From Streptomyces sp. NBC_01314 (lineage in GTDB: Bacteria > Actinomycetota > Actinomycetes > Streptomycetales > Streptomycetaceae): 64,000 nt of DNA. A model generated the notes under the pieces. The model made no database searches, was not told the origin of the DNA, and saw only the letters and a list, made by a program, of their open reading frames with translations. Shown here one piece after another: positions 52,074 through 62,536 of this stretch; the first letter of the stretch is position 1, and every line of letters begins with the position of its first letter. The DNA lies in NCBI RefSeq assembly GCF_041435215.1, contig NZ_CP108394.1, positions 9,982,001 to 10,046,000 of the forward strand, in the 5' to 3' direction. The position numbers were made by a program, and so were the translations under genes.

Positions 52074-52814
52074 TCAGCCGACGCCCGAGGCCTGCCGCCA
52101 CAGTTCCGCGAGTGAGGAGTCGCCCGTGACGGCGGGGAGAGGAAGCCGGTTCCACAGGGACAGGTACAGCCGGGGCGCCGGGCCCGCGATCTCGCAGTCG
52201 GCGGCACCCGCCGTCGACGCTTCCGCGCGTTCCGCCACGGGCGGCTCCGACGACAGCCGTACGGTCCAGGCGGCGTCCGTGTCGGTCGCCCGTACCCGCA
52301 GGACACCTGGTGTCCCGGTGCGCACCCGGCTCCTGCCGCGGGCGTGGAAGCCGAGCAGCAGTTCGTCGATGCCGTCGACGGCGAAGTCCACGGAGGGCTC
52401 GCCGAGTTCGCCGCCGAGCGCGGACTCCGCGTCGGCACGGTGCACGGACGTCTCGTGGGCCTGGCGGCGCGCCCAGAAGGCCAGCGGGGAGGGGGCGGGC
52501 AGGAAGCTCCAGCAGTCGACGTCGGCGGGGGTGGTGCGCAGGGTGTCGACGAGGCGCCGGTGTCCGGTCTCGAACCAGGTCAGCAGGGGGTCACCGTCCA
52601 GATCCGGGCCACTTTCGAGGGGGTGGGGCGAGGAACGGCCCTCGGCGAGGAATGCCGTGGCCCAGCGGTGCACGGCTCCCGTGTGCCGTACCAGGTCCCG
52701 GACCCGCCACTCGGGGCACGTCGGCACCTCGGCGTCCGTACCGGCCTTCCGGGCGGCCGTGGCAAGCAGTCGGCCTTCCTCGTCCAGGGCTCTGATGTGC
52801 TCGGCGGTCTCCAT
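52074..52814 (-). CDS. Mycothiol-dependent maleylpyruvate isomerase-family protein
   Basis: A 246-residue protein. The N-terminal DinB-like four-helix domain has C-P-E-W-R-V-R-D-L-V-R-H-T-G-A-V-H-R-W-A and E-T-S-V-H-R-A-D-A-E, giving the His/Glu/Asp metal triad of mycothiol S-transferases. The C-terminal SCP2-like domain covers about 150-240. It probably conjugates mycothiol to an electrophile or isomerises one. ATG at 52814; the frame upstream runs into the terminator at 52843, which supports this start. Confidence 0.85.
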   Translation of the reverse strand: METAEHIRALDEEGRLLATAARKAGTDAEVPTCPEWRVRDLVRHTGAVHRWATAFLAEGRSSPHPLESGPDLDGDPLLTWFETGHRRLVDTLRTTPADVDCWSFLPAPSPLAFWARRQAHETSVHRADAESALGGELGEPSVDFAVDGIDELLLGFHARGRSRVRTGTPGVLRVRATDTDAAWTVRLSSEPPVAERAEASTAGAADCEIAGPAPRLYLSLWNRLPLPAVTGDSSLAELWRQASGVG

Positions 52815-52842
52815 GGGACGAGTCTGCCGGATGAAGCGTGCT

Positions 52843-52877
52843 CGAAGCGCCCGCCCCGAGCCGGGGCGGGCGCTTCG
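52843..52877 (-). terminator. Perfect 16-bp hairpin terminator after the ATP-grasp gene
   Basis: CGAAGCGCCCGCCCCG (52843-52858) and its complement (52862-52877) pair perfectly around AGC, separating the RiPP locus from the mycothiol enzyme gene. Confidence 0.85.
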
Positions 52878-52902
52878 GTTCACCGGTGGGTGGTCGGGGG
52901 CG

Positions 52903-53886
52903 TCAGGGTGTCGCCCGGATCCGGCCGTCGCGGCGCGTTCCCGCCCCCGGTTCCTCGTGGGCGAGCCACTCGGCGACGCTGTGGGCGATCGGCTGGCCGG
53001 TGTCCATCTCCACGAACCCGAACTGGCCGGACTGGTTGCACTCCAGGAACCACCAGATCCCGTCCCCGTCCTCAGCGAAGTCGAAGGCCCCGTAGGAGAG
53101 TTCGGCGTCGCGGAGGTAGGCGCGCACGGCCGTGGCGGTGCGTGCCGGGACGTCCACCGGCTGCCAGGGCGTGGTGGAGGGGGCGAAGCGGACGTCCACC
53201 TCGTCGGGGTGCGCGTCCGGGGGGACCACCTTGCGGGCGGCCATCATGCGGTCACCGACGACGGTGAGCCGGATGTCGGCGGTCTTGGCGATCCGGCGCT
53301 GCAGCAGCGTCGGGCCGAACGCGACGGCGGTGAAGTCGGTGCCGGGCGCGATGCGGCTGGTGGGGACCGTCCGGGCGGGCTCCTGTGGATGGGTCCCGGA
53401 GACCGGCTTCACCACCAGGTCCGGGAAGCGCTCGGCGAAGTCACGGGCGGCCTGCGGGAACGTGGTGATCAGCGTGGCCGGTACCGGGAGCCCGCAGCGC
53501 TGGGCGTGCCGGAGCTGCCACGGCTTGTGCCGGGCCCGGCGGGCCGCGTCCGGGTCGTTCATCCAGCGGGCCCCCGTGCCGCGCAGCATGCCGTACAGGG
53601 CCTGCGAGGACTCCTCGGTCAGCCAGGGGGACGGCTCGGCGACCCCGGCCGCCGGAACGCCGGGCCGGCGCAGCCAGATGGACCGCAGCGTGCTCATGCT
53701 CACCAGGCGGCCGCCGGCGGACAGATGCCCGCGGAAGGAGCCGTGCACGTACTCGCCGGAGAGCGCCACCGCGCCGGGCAGGTCGGCGGGGTCGAGCCGG
53801 ACCACCGGTACGCCGGTCCTGTTGAGCTGCGCCACCACCAGGTCCGCCGTCACATCCTGTTCGCAGGTGAGGATCAACACCGTCAT
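52903..53886 (-). CDS. ATP-grasp peptide maturase (TgmB/MvdD-like)
   Basis: A 327-residue ATP-grasp ligase. The N-terminal preATP domain starts V-L-I-L-T-C-E-Q-D. L-V-V-K-P-V-S-G-T-H, T-L-L-Q-R-R-I-A-K-T-A-D-I-R and W-F-L-E-C-N-Q-S-G-Q-F-G-F are the ATP- and metal-binding motifs of the graspetide maturase group. It should form side-chain ester or amide (omega-ester/omega-amide) crosslinks in a precursor peptide. The 63-residue precursor is encoded 16 bp upstream. A terminator follows, and no methyltransferase gene is present. Confidence 0.9.
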   Translation of the reverse strand: MTVLILTCEQDVTADLVVAQLNRTGVPVVRLDPADLPGAVALSGEYVHGSFRGHLSAGGRLVSMSTLRSIWLRRPGVPAAGVAEPSPWLTEESSQALYGMLRGTGARWMNDPDAARRARHKPWQLRHAQRCGLPVPATLITTFPQAARDFAERFPDLVVKPVSGTHPQEPARTVPTSRIAPGTDFTAVAFGPTLLQRRIAKTADIRLTVVGDRMMAARKVVPPDAHPDEVDVRFAPSTTPWQPVDVPARTATAVRAYLRDAELSYGAFDFAEDGDGIWWFLECNQSGQFGFVEMDTGQPIAHSVAEWLAHEEPGAGTRRDGRIRATP

Positions 53887-53902
53887 CGTCGCCGGTCCGT
53901 GT

Positions 53903-54094
53903 TCAGTCGTCGAAATGGGTCTTCGATCCCGCAGTGGACGTCGTCGCCCCCAATTCCCTCATAAGACCCTGGTCATGCGCCGCTATCCGCCCGTCGGCGA
54001 GCACGTTCAACTGCAGCCCGGAGTCGTAGGTGTACGGAGCGCTGAACTCCAACTGCTCAGCGGCGCGAGCATAGTTGAGCACGAACAGTCGCAT
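53903..54094 (-). CDS. ATP-grasp-modified RiPP precursor (TgmA-like)
   Basis: A 63-residue peptide. The leader contains F-S-A-P-Y-T-Y-D-S-G-L-Q-L-N-V-L-A-D-G-R, which matches the conserved P-Y-x-Y-D-x-x-x-Q-L-N-V-x-x-D-G recognition segment of TgmA-type precursors. The C-terminal core G-A-T-T-S-T-A-G-S-K-T-H-F-D-D has five Thr/Ser donors and two terminal Asp acceptors, as expected for ester macrocycles. ATG at 54094 follows AAGGAG with 5 bases. It is directly followed by the ATP-grasp gene. The longer open frame upstream is not supported. Confidence 0.88.
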   Translation of the reverse strand: MRLFVLNYARAAEQLEFSAPYTYDSGLQLNVLADGRIAAHDQGLMRELGATTSTAGSKTHFDD

Positions 54095-54112
54095 CGTTTC
54101 TCCTTGTTCGGG

Positions 54113-54134
54113 ACCATCCGGAAAAGCGGATGGT
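54113..54134 (-). promoter_or_regulatory. Hairpin in the 5' leader of the RiPP precursor gene
   Basis: ACCATCCG (54113-54120) and CGGATGGT (54127-54134) form a perfect 8-bp stem around GAAAAG, 5 bp ahead of the precursor's ribosome binding site region. TATAAC-like sequence (minus strand, 54183-54188) could be the -10. Confidence 0.5.
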
Positions 54135-54273
54135 GACGCTCCGGCCGCCCTCTGTTCGGCCGGGTCGCGGTGTCTCCAGGGAGTTATACGAATCGAACGA
54201 CTGAATGGTTGCCTCACGTTCTCGAAGGGCTGACTTCATGCACCGCGAGGTGTCACGGGGCAACGGTGAGTGG

Positions 54274-55509
54274 TCATTTGGCGGCCGAGTGGCGGGTGGT
54301 GAACGCGATGGCGGAGGCGAACGCGGCGAGTACCGCGACGCTCGTGAGCGCGGTGGGCAGGGAGAACCATTCGGCCATGAATCCGATCGCGGGCGGGCCG
54401 AGGAGCATGCCGAGATAGCCGAGGGTGGAGGCGGTGGCCACCCCGCTGGGCCCGGCCAGCGCGCCGGCGCGTTCGATGGCGACGGGGAAGATGTTGGCGA
54501 GGCCCAGACCGGTGACCGCGAAGCCGAGCAGGGTCGCCCACACGGAGGGGGCGAGGGAGCCGAGCAGCATGCCGGCCGTCGCGGTCGCGCCACCGGCCAC
54601 GAGCACCGTGGTCCTGCCCAGGTGTTCGAGCAGGGTCGTCCCCGTGAGCCGGCCGACGGTCATGGCGAGTGCGAAACACGAGTAACCGATCGCCGCGACA
54701 CCGGGCGAGGTGTCCAGGTCCGCCTCCAGGTGCAGGGCGCCCCAGTCGGCCAGCGCCCCCTCGCCGTACGCCGTGCACCCGGCGATCAGGCCGAGGACGA
54801 CCACCAGGCCGCGCGTACGGCCGTCGAGGCGGCGGGGATCCGTCGCCCGGGGGCCCCGCCCGGAGGTGAGGTCCGGTGGTACCGGAGGCTCGTGGCGCAG
54901 CAGGGCGGGTGCGGCTACGGCGGTCACCAGCAGGCCGATCACGGTGATGCCGAGCAGATGGCGCGTGGGGGACAGGGAGCCCGCGACCAGGCCGCCGAGC
55001 CCCGCACCGAGCATGCCGCCGAGGCTGAAAGCGGCGTGGAAACTGGGCATGACGGGCCGGCCCAGCGCGGCCACCAGGTCCACGGCCGCGCTGTTGAAGG
55101 CGACGTTCATCCCGCCGAAAGCCGCGCCGAAGACCAGCAGTACCGCGCCCAGTGCGAGCGCCGAGTGGGTGAGCGGGGGCAGCGCCACGCTGAGCGACAG
55201 CAGGACGGCGCAGGCGACCGTCACCGGGTGGCTGCCGAAGCGGCGGCAGAGCCGGCCGGTGAGGACCATCGTGATCACCGCTCCGGCGGACACGCCCAGC
55301 AGCGCCAGCCCCAGTGCGCCGGGCGCCGCACCGGTCTGTTCCTTGACGGCGGGGATCCTGACCACCCAGCCGGCGAAGACGAAGCCGTCGAGGGCGAAGA
55401 AGGCGGTGATCGCGATGCGGAGGGTGCGGAGGTCGGCTCGGAGGTCGTCGGGGTCGTTGTCGTGGCCCGGCACGGCGTTGTGCGTTCGGGTTTTGTTTAT
55501 TCGCGGCAC
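54274..55509 (-). CDS. MFS transporter (YbjJ-like)
   Basis: A 411-residue permease with about 12 TM segments. G-R-L-C-R-R-F-G-S-H-P-V-T-V is the loop 2-3 motif, and symmetric halves split near 205-225. GTG at 55509 sits at the predicted transcription start of a promoter (TTGCCC/TAGCCT), so it is probably leaderless. It lies immediately upstream of the RiPP genes on the same strand with a 179-bp gap. It could export the graspetide, but related proteins are general drug or sugar transporters. Confidence 0.88.
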   Translation of the reverse strand: MPRINKTRTHNAVPGHDNDPDDLRADLRTLRIAITAFFALDGFVFAGWVVRIPAVKEQTGAAPGALGLALLGVSAGAVITMVLTGRLCRRFGSHPVTVACAVLLSLSVALPPLTHSALALGAVLLVFGAAFGGMNVAFNSAAVDLVAALGRPVMPSFHAAFSLGGMLGAGLGGLVAGSLSPTRHLLGITVIGLLVTAVAAPALLRHEPPVPPDLTSGRGPRATDPRRLDGRTRGLVVVLGLIAGCTAYGEGALADWGALHLEADLDTSPGVAAIGYSCFALAMTVGRLTGTTLLEHLGRTTVLVAGGATATAGMLLGSLAPSVWATLLGFAVTGLGLANIFPVAIERAGALAGPSGVATASTLGYLGMLLGPPAIGFMAEWFSLPTALTSVAVLAAFASAIAFTTRHSAAK

Positions 55510-55831: not shown

Positions 55832-55948
55832 ATGCGCGTACGTGACGCGGCACCGCACGGTGCCGGCGCGGGTACGTGGCTGATCACCCGGCGGCATGTG
55901 GACTACTGCCGTACCGCCTCCGCCGTCTGTCCTTCCGCACGCGTCTGA
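55832..55948 (+). CDS. Putative regulatory leader peptide
   Basis: A 38-residue ORF with GGAGG 5 bases upstream. Its second half, I-T-R-R-H-V-D-Y-C-R-T-A-S-A-V-C, matches the R-R-H-V-D-x-C-R-x-A-S-A-x-C leader-peptide pattern, with two Cys codons available for stalling. A hairpin begins 7 bp after the stop, and the LLM operon start is 54 bp away. It is the second such leader in the window. I infer cysteine- or sulfur-responsive attenuation. Confidence 0.82.
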   Translation: MRVRDAAPHGAGAGTWLITRRHVDYCRTASAVCPSARV

Positions 55949-55955
55949 CCCCTGT

Positions 55956-55970
55956 CGGCCCCTCGGGCCG
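55956..55970 (+). promoter_or_regulatory. Attenuator hairpin after the second leader peptide
   Basis: CGGCCC (55956-55961) and GGGCCG (55965-55970) form a perfect stem with a CTC loop, between the leader peptide stop and the LLM gene. Confidence 0.5.
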
Positions 55971-56001
55971 GCCGTCTCGTCGTGCCCTCGGAAGGAACCC
56001 C

Positions 56002-57108
56002 ATGTCCGGCCCCGCCCTGCGCCTCGCCGTCGAGCTCGACGGCGACGGCGCCCATCCCGCGGCCTGGCGCCGCGCCGCCCACTCCCCCGACCATCTGCTG
56101 ACCCCGCGCCGGGTGGCGCGTGTCGCCGCCGCCGCGGAGAACGCCGGGTTCACCCTGCTCACCCTGGACGACGGCGTACTCCCGCCCGGTTCGGTGCCCG
56201 ACACGGTCGGCAGGATCGGCGCGGTGGAGCGGGCCGCCTTCATCGCCGCGTCGACGAGCGTCGCCGGTGTCGCGCCGGTCGTCCCCCTCACCTACGCCGA
56301 ACCGTTCCATGTCTCCAGCCAGTTGGCGTCCCTCGACCACATCTCCGTCGGGCGCGCCGGGTGGGTGGTCGGTGAGGAGACGCAACCCGAGGCGGCACGT
56401 GCCTGGGGACGCCCCCTCGTCGAAGGGGCCGCCGCCCGAGCAAGCGAATCCCGTGACGGCGTCGCGGCGGTGCGCGCGCTGTGGGACTCGTGGGAGGACG
56501 ACGCGGTCGTCCGTTCCGTGGCCACCAGCCGGTATCTCGACCGCGACCGGCTGCACTACGTCGACTTCACCGGCGACACCTTCACGGTGAAGGGCCCCGC
56601 GATCGTGCCGCGTCCCCCGCAGGGGCAGGTCGTCGTGCTCGGCCACCCCGACCTCGTACCCGCCGAGCAGCTCGACGTCGCCCTCGTCGCGGGCCGCGGC
56701 CTCGCCGCCGTCGCCACGGCCGCCGCCGGTGCCGGGACGCCCCGGGTCTTCGCCGAGATCGAGGTCGCCCTCGACACGGCACACGCCACGGCCGAGGAAC
56801 GCGTCGCCGACCTCGAACAGCATGCTCCGTGGACCGATCGCGGACGGTTGCGCCATGTCGGCTCCGCCGCCGGACTCGCCGCGCTGCTGGAGCGGCTGCG
56901 GGGAGTCGTGGACGGCGTACGGCTGCATCCGCTGGTGCTGGACGAGGACCTTCCGGAGCTGTCCCGGCTCGTGCTGCCGCATCTCTTCGAACGGCGGCAC
57001 GCGGTCCGTCCGTCGGCCGGCGCTACCCTGCGCACCCACCTGGGCCTGGAGCGGCCCGCCAACCGCTACGCCACCGCGGCGGTCCCGGCCGGGGAGGTGA
57101 CCCGATGA
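56002..57108 (+). CDS. LLM-class flavin-dependent oxidoreductase
   Basis: A 368-residue bacterial luciferase-like monooxygenase. L-R-L-A-V-E-L-D-G-D-G-A-H-P opens the barrel, and L-A-S-L-D-H-I-S-V-G-R-A-G-W and E-A-A-R-A-W-G-R are family motifs. It should use FMNH2 and O2 to oxidise an organosulfur or similar substrate. ATG at 56002 follows AAGGA. It overlaps the next LLM gene by ATGA. The upstream leader peptide suggests derepression in sulfur limitation. Confidence 0.87.
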   Translation: MSGPALRLAVELDGDGAHPAAWRRAAHSPDHLLTPRRVARVAAAAENAGFTLLTLDDGVLPPGSVPDTVGRIGAVERAAFIAASTSVAGVAPVVPLTYAEPFHVSSQLASLDHISVGRAGWVVGEETQPEAARAWGRPLVEGAAARASESRDGVAAVRALWDSWEDDAVVRSVATSRYLDRDRLHYVDFTGDTFTVKGPAIVPRPPQGQVVVLGHPDLVPAEQLDVALVAGRGLAAVATAAAGAGTPRVFAEIEVALDTAHATAEERVADLEQHAPWTDRGRLRHVGSAAGLAALLERLRGVVDGVRLHPLVLDEDLPELSRLVLPHLFERRHAVRPSAGATLRTHLGLERPANRYATAAVPAGEVTR

Positions 57109-58505
57109 CCCGTACCGATCCCCTCGACGTCCCCCGGCCCGACGCACAGCTGCACCTCGGGGTCTTTTTCCAGGGCGTCAACCACTGGACCATCTGGTCC
57201 GACCCGGCGAGCGGCAGCCAGATCGACCCCGCCAGCTTCCGGAAGGTGGCCCGGACCGCCGAACGGGGCCTGTTCGACGCGTTCTTCCTCGGGGAGGGGC
57301 TGCGGCTGCGCGAGGTCGACGGCAGGATCCACGATCTCGACGTCGCCGGACGGCCCGACGCCATCACCCAGCTCGCCGCCCTGGCCGCCGTCACCGACCG
57401 GATCGGCCTGGTCTCCACCTCCAACACCACGTTCAACGAGGCCCCCGACCTCGCCCGCCGCCTGTCCGGCCTCGATCTGCTCTCCGAGGGCCGCGCCGGC
57501 TGGAACGTGGTGACCACCGACAACGCCTGGACCGGGGAGAACTTCCGCCGCGGCGGCTACCTCGACCACGCCGACCGGTACACGCGCGCCGAGGAGTTCC
57601 TCACCGTGGCCCGCGCCCTCTGGGACGGCTGGAAGGACGGCGCCGCCTCCGGCTCCCCGGGCGCCTCCACCTGGGCGGCACCCGGAGCCGTCCGCCGGGT
57701 CCGGCACCGGGGAGCGCAGTTCGACGTCGACCTAGCGCCGACCCTGCCGCGCTCCGCCCAGGGTCACCCGGTGATCTTCCAGGCCGGCGACTCGGGTGAG
57801 GGCCGGGAATTCGCCGCCCGCAACGCCGACGTCATCTTCTCCGCGCACGGCAGCGACTTCGACGACGCGCTGGCCTTCGCCGACGACGTCCGGCGCCGTC
57901 TGCTGTCCGCCGGCCGGCCCGAGGACGACCTGCGCATCCTCCCCGGTACGGAGATCATCATCGGGGCCACCGAGGAGGAGGCCCTGGAGAAGAAGCGCTG
58001 GATCCGCCTCCAACAGGTCACCCCCGCCACGGCGTTGGGCATCGCCGGGCTCCTGTGGAACCGTGACCTGTCCGACCGGGACGCCGACGGGCCGCTGCCG
58101 AAGGAGGACCCGGTCGTCGCCGAGAACGACGGCTCCTTCGGCGCCCGGCGTATCGCCGACCCGTACACGGTGGTCGCCGAATGGCGGGAGAAGGCCGAGG
58201 CGGGAGGCTGGTCGCTGCGCGAGACCGTCATCGCCCTGGGTCCGCAGCGCGGCCACGTCGGTACTCCGGCGGGCCTCGCCGACAGGTTCACCCACTGGGT
58301 GCGCCACGGCGCGGTCGACGGCTTCAACGTCACGCCGTACCTGATCCCCGACGGCCTCGACGACATCGTCGACCTGCTCGTCCCCGAACTGCAGGAACGC
58401 GGCGTCTACCGCACCGAGTACACGGGCACGACGCTGCGCGAGCACCTGGGCCTGCGTGAACCTCTCACCCACCGCTCCACGACGGACGGCCGGCGAGCCG
58501 GCTGA
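57105..58505 (+). CDS. NtaA/DszA/SnaA-type FMN-dependent monooxygenase
   Basis: A 466-residue member of the larger LLM branch that includes nitrilotriacetate and dibenzothiophene-sulfone monooxygenases. Hallmarks: L-G-V-F-F-Q-G-V-N-H-W-T-I-W, L-V-S-T-S-N-T-T-F-N-E-A-P-D-L-A-R, S-E-G-R-A-G-W-N-V-V-T-T and H-R-G-A-Q-F-D-V. It should open or desulfurise a substrate with O2 and FMNH2, which must come from a separate reductase (one with a similar leader lies at 33682). It is translationally coupled to the preceding gene. Confidence 0.92.
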   Translation: MTRTDPLDVPRPDAQLHLGVFFQGVNHWTIWSDPASGSQIDPASFRKVARTAERGLFDAFFLGEGLRLREVDGRIHDLDVAGRPDAITQLAALAAVTDRIGLVSTSNTTFNEAPDLARRLSGLDLLSEGRAGWNVVTTDNAWTGENFRRGGYLDHADRYTRAEEFLTVARALWDGWKDGAASGSPGASTWAAPGAVRRVRHRGAQFDVDLAPTLPRSAQGHPVIFQAGDSGEGREFAARNADVIFSAHGSDFDDALAFADDVRRRLLSAGRPEDDLRILPGTEIIIGATEEEALEKKRWIRLQQVTPATALGIAGLLWNRDLSDRDADGPLPKEDPVVAENDGSFGARRIADPYTVVAEWREKAEAGGWSLRETVIALGPQRGHVGTPAGLADRFTHWVRHGAVDGFNVTPYLIPDGLDDIVDLLVPELQERGVYRTEYTGTTLREHLGLREPLTHRSTTDGRRAG

Positions 58506-59111: not shown

Positions 59112-61373
59112 TCAGCCGGCCGCGCGGAACGTCCGTAGGCGCAGGGAGTTGCCGACGACGAAGACCGAGGAGAAGGCCATGGCCGCCCCGGCGATCATCG
59201 GGTTGAGGAGGCCCGCCGCCGCGAGCGGCACAGCGGCCACGTTGTAGGCGAAGGCCCAGAACAGGTTGGACCGGATGGTGCCGAGGGTCCGGCGGGCGAG
59301 GCGGATGGCGTCGGCTGCCACGCGCAGATCACCCCGTACGAGGGTCAGGTCGCCGGCCTGGATCGCGGCGTCCGTGCCCGTGCCCATCGCCAGCCCCAGG
59401 TCGGCCTGCGCGAGCGCGGCCGCGTCGTTGACGCCGTCACCGACCATCGCGACCGAACGGCCCTCCACCTGCAGCCGCTTGACCACGTCGACCTTGTCCT
59501 GCGGCAGCACCTCCGCGATCACGTCCTCGACCGCGATACCCACCTCACGCGCGACGGACTCGGCCACGGCCCTGTTGTCCCCGGTCAGCAGGATCGGGGT
59601 GAGGCCGAGCGCGCGCAGCCGGGTGACCGCCTCCGCGCTGGTCTCCTTCACCGCGTCGGCGACTTCGAGCACCGCGCGGGCCTCGCCGTCCCAGGCGACC
59701 ACGATGGCGGTACGGCCGGACGCCTCGGCCTCGGCCCGCGTCCGTGCCAGGCGCTCCGGCAGTTCCATGGCCCAGTCGGCGAGGAGCCGTTCGCGGCCGA
59801 CGAGGACCGCGTGGCCGTCGACGATCCCCCGCACCCCGAGGCCGGGTACGTTCGCGAAGTCCTCCGGTGCGGGCAGGGAGCCGAGCCGCGTCAGCGCACC
59901 CTCGGCGACGGCGCGGGCGACCGGGTGTTCGGAGGCGTGCTCCAACGCGCCCGCCAGCCGCAGGACTTCGGCCTCGTGGGTGCCGGCGGCGGGGTGTACG
60001 GCCAGCAGGGTCATCCGGCCGGTGGTGATGGTGCCGGTCTTGTCCAGGACGACGGTGTCGACCTTGCGCGTGGACTCCAGTACCTCCGGGCCCTTGATCA
60101 GGATGCCCAGTTGGGCGCCGCGCCCGGTGCCGACCAGCAGCGCGGTCGGTGTGGCGAGCCCCAGGGCGCAGGGGCAGGCGATGATCAGTACGGCGACGGC
60201 GGCGGTGAACGCGGCCGTGGGCCCGGCGCCGTTGCCGAGCCAGAAGCCGAGCGTGCCCAGGGCGAGGGCGATCACGATCGGCACGAAGACGGCGGAGATC
60301 CGGTCGGCGAGCCGTTGGGCAGCGGCCTTCCCGTTCTGTGCGTCCTCCACCAGCTTCGCCATCCGGGCCAGTTGGGTGTCGGCGCCGATCCGGCCGGCCT
60401 CGACGACGAGACGGCCGCCGGCGTTGACGGTGGCACCGGTGACCGGATCGCCGGCCACGACCTCCAGGGGCACGGACTCGCCGGTGAGCATGGACGCGTC
60501 CACTGCGGACGAGCCCTCGACGACCGTCCCGTCGGTGGCGATCTTCTCGCCGGGCCGCACGAGGAAGCGGTCGCCGACCCGCAACTCACCGATGGGGAGC
60601 GTCCGTTCGCGGCCGTCCCGCGTGAGGACGGTGACGTCCTTCGCGCCCAGCTCCAGCAGTGCCCGCAGCGCCGCGCCCGCCTTCCGCTTGGAGCGGGCCT
60701 CGAAGTAGCGCCCGGCGAGGATGAAGGCGGTCACCCCGGCCGCGGCCTCCAGATAGATGCTCCCGGCGCCGTCGCCCCGGACGACGGTCAGCTCGAAGGG
60801 GTGCGTCATGCCCGCTGTGCCCGCCGTCCCGAGGAACAGCGCCCACAGCGACCAGCCGAACGCGGCCAGGGTGCCGACGGAGATCAGGGTGTCCATGGTG
60901 GCGGCACCGTGCCGGGCGTTCTTCCAGGCGGCGCGGTGGAAGGGCCACCCGGCGTACGTCACCACCGGCGCCGCCAGCGTCAGGGACAGCCACTGCCAGT
61001 ACTCGAACTGCAGCGCGGGGATCATGGCCATCGCGATCACGGGGACGGCGAGGACCACCGCTGTGATCAGCCGCTGCCGGAGCCGCAGCGACTCGTCGTC
61101 CACCGCCTCGCCCGTGCTCTCGGGCTCGGACCGTGCGGGTGGCGCCGGCTCCCGCGCCGTGTAGCCCGTCGCCTCGACGGTGGCGATCAGGTCCCGCACC
61201 GAGACGTCATCGGTGTGGCTGACCTTCGCCTTCTCGGTGGCGTAGTTGACCGTGGCCGTGACGCCGTCCATGCGGTTCAGCTTCTTCTCGACGCGGGCCG
61301 CGCAGGAGGCACAGGTCATACCGCCGATGGAGAGCTCCACCTCGGCGGCGGGGCCGGTCCTGGTGATGGTCAT
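59112..61373 (-). CDS. copA: Copper-translocating P1B-type ATPase
   Basis: A 753-residue heavy-metal P-type ATPase. One HMA domain with G-G-M-T-C21-A-S-C24-A-A is at the N-terminus. Then come eight TM segments, the A-domain T-G-E-S, the TM6 metal site A-C-P-C-A-L-G, the phosphorylation site D-K-T-G-T, and H-P, T-G-D-N and G-D-G-V-N-D motifs. The CPC and single CxxC HMA indicate Cu(I) export. ATG at 61373 follows GAGGAG with 5 bases. CsoR-type boxes control it and the divergent exported protein. Confidence 0.95.
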
Positions 61374-61457
61374 GGCTGCTCCTCGTACATCGTGGGCGGC
61401 TTGCCGGGCGGCTTGCCGGACTGATACGGGGTGGGGGTATCCTCGCGTACAGTCCCT

Positions 61458-61486
61458 GTATACCCCCATAGGGTATCGGCGGCAAA
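61458..61486 (-). promoter_or_regulatory. Copper ATPase promoter with CsoR-type box
   Basis: Minus-strand TTGCCG (61481-61486) and TATACA (61458-61463) have a 17-bp spacer that contains ATACCC...GGGTAT (61461-61477), an imperfect CsoR-type palindrome. Cu(I) binding to CsoR should release repression. Confidence 0.75.
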
Positions 61487-61500
61487 TCGCTCCGCACCGC

Positions 61501-61528
61501 TTGACTGCATACCCCCTAGGGGTATGGT
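61501..61528 (+). promoter_or_regulatory. Promoter of the exported metal protein with CsoR-type box
   Basis: TTGACT (61501-61506) and TATGGT (61523-61528) with a 16-bp spacer overlap CATACCCC-CTA-GGGGTATG (61508-61526), a perfect CsoR-type palindrome. This box is better than the one at the divergent promoter. Confidence 0.8.
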
Positions 61529-61567
61529 GAGCTGTGTGTAGGACCCGAACCCCCGAAGGAGACGGCC

Positions 61568-62536
61568 ATGAACACCGGACTGAGGATCACCGCGTTCGCC
61601 GCCGCCCTGGCCGCGACGTTCGGCACCGCCTACGGCGTGGGCAAGGGCGTCGGCCCCGTCGTCTCGGACACCCCGGAGAGCGCGGAGAGCGCGCCCGCCC
61701 GCCACGACAGCCATACCGAGGAGGAGTCACCGGATCCCGGAGAGAGCGAGGGCGGGCAGGCGGCGGCCCCGGCCGGCGGACTGCGGATCTCCGAGGGCGG
61801 CTACACGCTCGACCTCCGGACCTCGGGTGTCACCGCCGGACACCGCGCCGACCTGCGCTTCGTCATCCGGGACGAGGACGGCCGCGCCGTCACCGCGTTC
61901 CAGCGCGAGCACGACAAGGAACTCCACCTCATCGTCGCCTCACGCGACCTGGTCACCTACCGCCATCTGCACCCCACCCGCGCCGCCGACGGCACCTGGA
62001 GCACCCCCGTCGACCTGCCCGGGGCGGGCGACTACCGCGTCTTCGCCGACTTCACCCCCGCCGGGAAGGACGCCGAGAACCTCACGCTCGGCGCCGACCT
62101 CGCGGCCTCGGGCACGTACAAACCGGAAAAGCTCCCGGCGCAGAGCGACACCGCCGAGGTCAACGGCTACGAGGTCGAGCTGACCGGTGGCCTGCGCCCG
62201 GGCGTCGCGAGCGAACTCAAGCTGAAGGTCTCCCGCGACGGCAGGCCCGTCACCGACCTCCAGCCCTACCTCGGCGCGTACGGCCACCTGGTCGCCCTGC
62301 GCTCCGGCGACCTCGCCTACCTGCACGTACATCCCCACGGTGAACCCGGCGACGGCAGGACCGCACCCGGCCCGGACGTCTCCTTCACGGCCACCGCGCC
62401 CAGCGCCGGCGCCTACCGCCTGTTCCTCGACTTCAAGCACGAGGGCAAGGTCCACACGGCCGCGTTCACGGTCCGGACGGGCGCGGCGGCCACACCGGAG
62501 GAGCCGCACGAGACCTCGACCGGCCACTCCCACTGA
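61568..62536 (+). CDS. Exported, His-rich copper-locus protein
   Basis: A 322-residue protein. The N-terminal signal/anchor is about 5-26, followed by an acidic linker and a beta-rich region. Possible metal ligands are grouped: H-D-S-H, Y-R-H-L-H-P, L-H-V-H-P-H-G and a terminal G-H-S-H. ATG at 61568 follows GAAGGAG. The CsoR-type promoter and divergent CopA point to extracytoplasmic copper binding or chaperoning. The exact biochemical role is not established. Confidence 0.85.

Follow-up and report, generated by a model that had tools for sequence, protein, structure and literature searches.

Does a short precursor gene followed by a single ATP-grasp enzyme gene, with no methyltransferase beside it, form a complete graspetide locus, and is its product of an unusual kind? 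The question is raised by a gene pair on the minus strand of a 64,000-nucleotide stretch from Streptomyces sp. NBC_01314, the whole of which is called the window here and supplies all coordinates given without another name. Our reading, with a probability of roughly 0.82, is that these two genes make up a graspetide locus belonging to the Strep_pep (PF14404)/TIGR04187 family, with a predicted bicyclic product of about 13 residues.

The gene pair and its surroundings

The precursor gene (53903..54094, minus strand) begins with ATG, 5 nt behind a Shine-Dalgarno sequence AAGGAG discernible at 54100..54105 on the same strand, and encodes the 63-residue peptide MRLFVLNYARAAEQLEFSAPYTYDSGLQLNVLADGRIAAHDQGLMRELGATTSTAGSKTHFDD. 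The initial annotation had described a 63-residue precursor with P-Y-x-Y-D, Q-L-N-V and D-G signatures and a C-terminal D-D, all of which are present, and had proposed a comparison with TgmA/graspetide families. Two family models recognize the peptide above their cut-offs: PF14404 “Strep_pep” spans positions 1-63 of 63 with 129.9 bits (gathering score 25, E 3.6e-38) and TIGR04186 yields 31.3 bits (cut-off 25). In length, leader and core the peptide equals Strep_pep, and it departs from the family majority in nothing of weight, for example by R2, L3 and A50 instead of Q, P and T. Strep_pep is itself named in PMC8939145 as one of the precursor families found in 2009.

The per-column conservation of 111 precursors suggests a leader/core boundary after residue 50. 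The predicted leader (residues 1-50; 53945..54094, minus strand) bears the conserved pattern PY.YD...QLNVL.DGR, the first part of which, PY.YD, is compatible with the Phhx(1,2)h leader motif given in PMC8939145. By the same profile, the predicted core (residues 51-63; 53906..53944, minus strand) is TTSTAGSKTHFDD. A search for a solved precursor structure gave nothing usable.

Between the precursor stop and the start of the ATP-grasp maturase gene (52903..53886, minus strand) lie 16 nt (53887-53902), just as initially annotated. The 327-residue maturase carries an FLECN (E-x-N) motif, and the surrounding FLECNQSGQFG shows no variation across 30 aligned maturases; this region could also be aligned with those of 5ig8 and AMdnB (7m4s). 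The solved homologue chain 9bou_A aligns to residues 1-315 with an E-value of 3.8e-155; the named genomes nearest to this chain, at 96-98%, include those of S. violaceorubidus, S. tendae and S. coelicoflavus, and our literature search found no mention of 9BOU. The enzyme scores 401 bits (cut-off 350) with TIGR04187 (GRASP_SAV_5884), a family of ribosomal-peptide maturases, and 36.4 bits (cut-off 27) with PF21068. It thus falls in a peptide-maturase family and not, as would have spoken against the initial annotation, in a family of non-peptide ligases.

Free amino acids are known to be added by ATP-grasp ligases of other, non-graspetide pathways. One could therefore envisage a RimK-like enzyme that joins the Asp carboxylates to a partner other than a core side chain, or one that closes a single ring, in which case the invariant core would be a tag for recognition. 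The RimK model does match the maturase, if weakly (45 bits, where its cut-off is 143), but the 401 bits of the peptide-maturase model and the graspetide-like donor and acceptor make-up of the core render this alternative unlikely. The data instead support a putative graspetide-type precursor and its ATP-grasp maturase in a minimal two-gene locus.

On the 3' side of the maturase gene a hairpin (52843..52877, minus strand) with a perfect 16-bp stem and a loop of 3 folds with -42.4 kcal/mol (z -4.5), and none of 200 shuffles was equally stable. It is probably the site at which transcription ends. As it has no T-run, our scan for T-run terminators found none. An uninterrupted stem of at least 10 pairs follows the maturase in only 7 of 114 loci, the window included, and is not a feature of the family. 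The terminator named initially corresponds to this hairpin.

The neighbouring genes on either side lie on the same strand; the downstream one (52074-52883 as listed) encodes a mycothiol-dependent enzyme, the upstream one (54274-55509) an MFS transporter. Elsewhere in the window are a tandem pair of luciferase-like (PF00296) monooxygenase genes (55876-58505) and, at 59112-62536, a gene for a heavy-metal P-type ATPase (PF00122, PF00403) divergent from one for a 322-residue protein that matches nothing in Pfam at E 0.001.

Distribution and gene neighbourhood

To place the locus among its relatives, we searched genus-level samples made up of species representatives, not of all strains. PF14404 matched at E 0.001 in 106 of 199 genomes of the genus, in 104 of them above cut-off; in two of the 106 (G072 and G100) every match falls within a long frame and is spurious, leaving 104 genomes with the locus. 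Five PF14404 matches, covering positions 30-57 within frames of 643-709 residues, were likewise judged spurious and left out. The 104 genomes carry 115 places, 11 of them having two, and the locus is missing from 95 of the 199, which indicates a function dispensable for the genus as a whole. At the level of the order 97 of 197 genomes score above cut-off, with matches in one of six genera; at that of the class 19 of 296 genomes match, again in a single genus, of 114. All named matches are from Streptomyces, except for one record titled Kitasatospora aureofaciens. The locus is an ordinary one, carried by roughly every second genome in the genus sample, and its recipe has already been catalogued by sequence.

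The 114 places besides the window, from 103 other genomes, formed our comparison set, fetched with up to 8 kb on each side, or less at contig ends (7 loci are shorter than 10 kb in all). In all 114, as in the window, the maturase gene lies on the same strand just downstream of the precursor gene, and 114 of the 115 pairs are separated by 4-38 nt. The exception is L194, where the precursor frame (L194:7956-8102) is broken before the core while the maturase frame is open, making it the one relic among the 114. Such relics raise the thought that the window strain, too, might hold an inactive remnant. This is most improbable given its two intact frames, strong Shine-Dalgarno sequence, consensus core and upstream element (see below). 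When named loci were instead collected by their maturases, the precursor was present in 80 of 80, these being the best 80 of 454 and hence loci close to the 9bou clade.

Does a third gene travel with the pair? By the counts obtained, none does. Filtered reading frames of at least 180 codons recur in at most 46 of the 114 loci, at variable distance, by a rough filter that in 86 of 114 picked up even the maturase, and small frames within 1.2 kb recur in at most 30. No conserved protease, exporter or methyltransferase accompanying the pair was found across the loci. The most frequent neighbour, a 412-codon gene without a Pfam match (e.g., L086:14073-15308), occurs in 46 of the 114 at a varying 2-7.8 kb before the maturase start and always on the maturase strand, and a small membrane-protein frame stands close upstream in about 30 of 114; we considered both as functional partners but read them as partial synteny. 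The 11 genes flanking the pair in the window recur in no more than 4 of the 114 loci and were dismissed as functional neighbours.

On contigs longer than 7 Mb, 26 of 33 loci (a subset plus the window) are no farther than 1.3 Mb from the nearer contig end, a limit chosen after seeing the data, when about 9 would be expected under uniform placement. By these end distances Strep_pep is a locus of the chromosome arms.

A relative was also observed on plasmid NZ_CP130725.1 (L277:3989-5537). Its precursor is 45% identical, with a Lys-free core, TTSTAGSATHNDDD, that has three acidic residues, and its maturase reaches 341 bits with TIGR04187, under the cut-off. A 134-residue overlapping gene without an NCBIfam match directly follows the plasmid pair, which is possibly a three-gene variant.

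The missing methyltransferase

The observation that no methyltransferase is near the pair is correct: tblastn with nine sound PIMT queries found no match across the entire 64-kb window. In the whole genome, the TIGR04188 model gave only two matches at E 1e-5, both below cut-off and at least 2.65 Mb away. The further suggestion that this lack is unusual did not survive comparison. The same tblastn search found a PIMT in none of the 114 Strep_pep loci. As a positive control we took 30 TIGR04187 loci of another clade, the top-scoring ones and not a random draw, of which 29 have a PIMT within 1.5 kb (L048 being the one without). These PIMT loci encode another type of precursor, with a PYP leader and an HGT... 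core of 30-39 residues. A tree of 144 maturases separates the 114 Strep_pep rows, including the window but without L134, which is cut by its contig, from the 30 control rows by a branch with support 100. Since none of these Strep_pep loci has a PIMT, nearly all controls do and the tree is two-sided, the missing methyltransferase is a trait of the Strep_pep family. Consistently, PIMT is tied to group 13 graspetides in PMC13001092 and PMC13097080.

A nearly invariant core

The 115 precursors share few core variants: TTSTAGSKTHFDD in 84, Q8 (core numbering) in 11, A8 in 10, A2 in 5, K4 together with A8 in 4, and the one broken frame. In the 111 precursors used for per-column comparison, 10 of 13 core columns are invariant, among them T51, S53, S57 and T59, and the variable ones are 52 (Ala replacing T52 in 5 of 111), 54 and 58 (K in 88, A in 14, Q in 9). 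One natural precursor without K58 has the core TTSTAGSQTHFDD. Among the database homologues listed (160 of 227 and 605 found) the consensus core occurs in 147 of 160. A literature search with the core sequence gave nothing usable.

Over the 6105 pairs of the 111 precursors with 63 residues, the mean pairwise difference is 0.039 (3.9%) for the core, as against 0.356 for the leader and 0.308 for the maturase. Of 315 stretches of 13 residues along the maturase, none matches the conservation of the core, the best being WWFLECNQSGQFG with 0.045 in a sample of 1500 pairs. Four-fold sites of shared residues show a difference in 58% of comparisons within the core and in 48% of those within the leader; because these sites have diverged, selection acts on the peptide, and a constraint at the level of DNA or RNA was rejected as the cause. 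An overlapping gene was discarded as well: the +1 and +2 frames across the core are open, yet their sequence is varied. Nor is the uniformity an artefact of searching with a model, as the consensus core recurs in 79 of the 80 named loci seeded by maturase (best 80 of 454) and L194, with positions 1-46 alone, was still found at 49 bits.

For comparison, a control set of 28 cores of the PIMT type from this genus (L040 being left out as out of frame) differs by 0.399 and their maturases by 0.348, that is, core variation ten times that of Strep_pep. Similarly, PMC8939145 describes its largest precursor cluster, which may or may not contain Strep_pep, as so diverse that the aspartates alone are conserved.

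The variation at position 58 follows another maturase tree: the clade of the window has 71 rows, the window included, and every one retains K58, while many sister-clade rows are without it, a pattern to be taken with caution as five outgroup rows of that tree are in the wrong frame. Four loci without K58 have a Lys at position 54.

Proposed ring chemistry

The candidate donors of the core are T51, T52, S53, T54, S57, K58 and T59, and its candidate acceptors D62 and D63. The Thr/Ser donors recognized initially hold, but Lys58 had been overlooked as a further, possibly lactam-forming donor. In the proposed mechanism, the maturase would recognize the leader through PY.YD...QLNVL.DG and, at the expense of ATP, phosphorylate D62 and D63 on their side-chain carboxylates, in keeping with the acyl-phosphate mechanism described for graspetide synthetases (PMC13097080). 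Core nucleophiles would then attack the activated aspartates. As there are two acceptors, at most two side-chain rings can form, and the predicted product is a bicyclic peptide of about 13 residues that has lost 2 x 18 Da. Its leader would be removed by a host protease encoded elsewhere.

The simplest ring set would be one Thr/Ser ester and one K58 lactam, with two esters as the other possibility. The step from K58 to D62 is one of four residues, like that of the Lys9-Asp13 isopeptide of corallotide (PMC13097080). A core Lys is absent from 21 of the 115 precursors (11 with Q8 and 10 with A8), so a Lys lactam is not obligate for the family. It is possible, if on the doubtful side, that the same class of enzyme makes both rings as Thr/Ser esters and that K58 is no donor. 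That would agree with the four invariant hydroxyl residues (T51, S53, S57, T59), with A or Q at position 58 in 23 of 111 precursors, and with the Lys-free core of the plasmid relative (P0241). Against it stand the retention of K58 throughout the window's maturase clade, the Lys at position 54 that replaces it in four loci, and prunipeptin, which reportedly has one ester and one isopeptide bond. Set against the initial prediction of one or two ester rings in a possibly distinct topology, an ester plus a lactam through Lys58 appears at least as likely as two esters.

A conserved element upstream

Upstream of the precursor gene we identified a conserved 35-bp element (54183..54217, minus strand; consensus GTAAGGAAACCAAtCACcCGTTCGATTCGTATAAG) in 71 of 113 upstream regions tested, a call being made where the score exceeded every score from five-fold shuffles. 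Identity among the 71 is 90% in the element but 45% and 57% in the flanking 35 and 20 bp. The 71 loci correspond to the window's maturase clade, plus L134, which stands outside the tree, and minus L141, whose upstream stretch was too short in that test and whose genome does have the element. It was absent from all 42 loci tested beyond that clade, of which 12-13 (e.g., L172 and L161) share another stretch, AAGTGATGAATTCCTTAC.

In its own genome, the 16-bp 3' part of the element (at most 2 mismatches) and the spaced pattern of its two ends each match only 54183-54217. Across 101 genomes of the genus, with at most 3 mismatches, 28 have one match each, every one of them upstream of a Strep_pep start at a distance of 30-31 or 88-101 nt; a reversed control pattern matched nowhere in the 101. 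The element is a putative promoter or regulator site: its unvaried sequence and its placement at either of two discrete distances would suit a promoter to which a regulator binds. A sigma-70 promoter scan found nothing, and GGAAAC...CGT within the element is reminiscent of ECF sigma-factor promoters. The single copy in the genome excludes a regulon sharing the full 35-bp sequence; a regulator requiring part of the element alone may serve other genes.

A possible role for the product

The locus is of a known kind, and its frozen core and upstream element matter more than the locus itself. So little variation in the core hints at a defined partner, or at a role for the peptide in the producer. 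Both the core and the 35-bp element are nearly unchanged in the window's clade, which suggests that the product most likely has one constant partner and constant regulation, and hence that its role is in Streptomyces itself. Tentatively, and at somewhat less than even odds, we read the product as a ring-locked peptide of fixed sequence under dedicated control that acts on Streptomyces itself, and not as a diversifying antibiotic. It may serve in signalling, in regulation or as a house inhibitor directed at one enzyme. If so, the sister-clade exchange of K58, the presumed lactam donor, for A or Q, sometimes with K54, would amount to a set of ring variants that nature has built on a common scaffold. 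As the system has two genes and the structure of a synthetase homologue is solved, its ring pattern, its partner, its control and the phenotype of a knockout lend themselves to direct tests.

Comparison with known graspetide systems

The microviridin enzymes MvdC/MvdD and MdnB/MdnC can be aligned over the whole of the window maturase, including the E-x-N region. However, the microviridin models TIGR04184 and TIGR04185 give it only 124.5 and 106.3 bits (cut-offs 425 and 475), and the microviridin motif PFFARFL is absent from the window's leader.

The group 13 graspimiditides (fuscimiditide, amycolimiditide and albusimiditide), which are of Thr/Asp ester chemistry (PMC13001092), resemble the window in that PIMT-linked loci also match TIGR04187. 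That model takes in the PIMT-linked clade as well, from which the window maturase stands apart with a branch support of 100. They differ by a PIMT (TIGR04188), a PYP leader, a core of 30-39 residues and a separate maturase clade; the linked PIMT typical of group 13 was found neither in the window nor in the 114 loci nor, above cut-off, in the genome.

The closest known product is probably prunipeptin of Streptomyces prunicolor, called a bicyclic graspetide in a title cited in PMC13097080, whose cluster family has 3,589 members, 99.53% of them from Streptomyces (PMC11888242). This fits the distribution of Strep_pep. Prunipeptin, described by Unno and Kodani in 2021, reportedly arises from two genes and carries one ester and one isopeptide bond. 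The window locus is like it in lying in Streptomyces and, by that reported arrangement, in consisting of two genes alone. From the two-gene origin and ester-plus-isopeptide structure ascribed to prunipeptin and the matching Streptomyces distribution, the predicted product of the window is likely to be prunipeptin.
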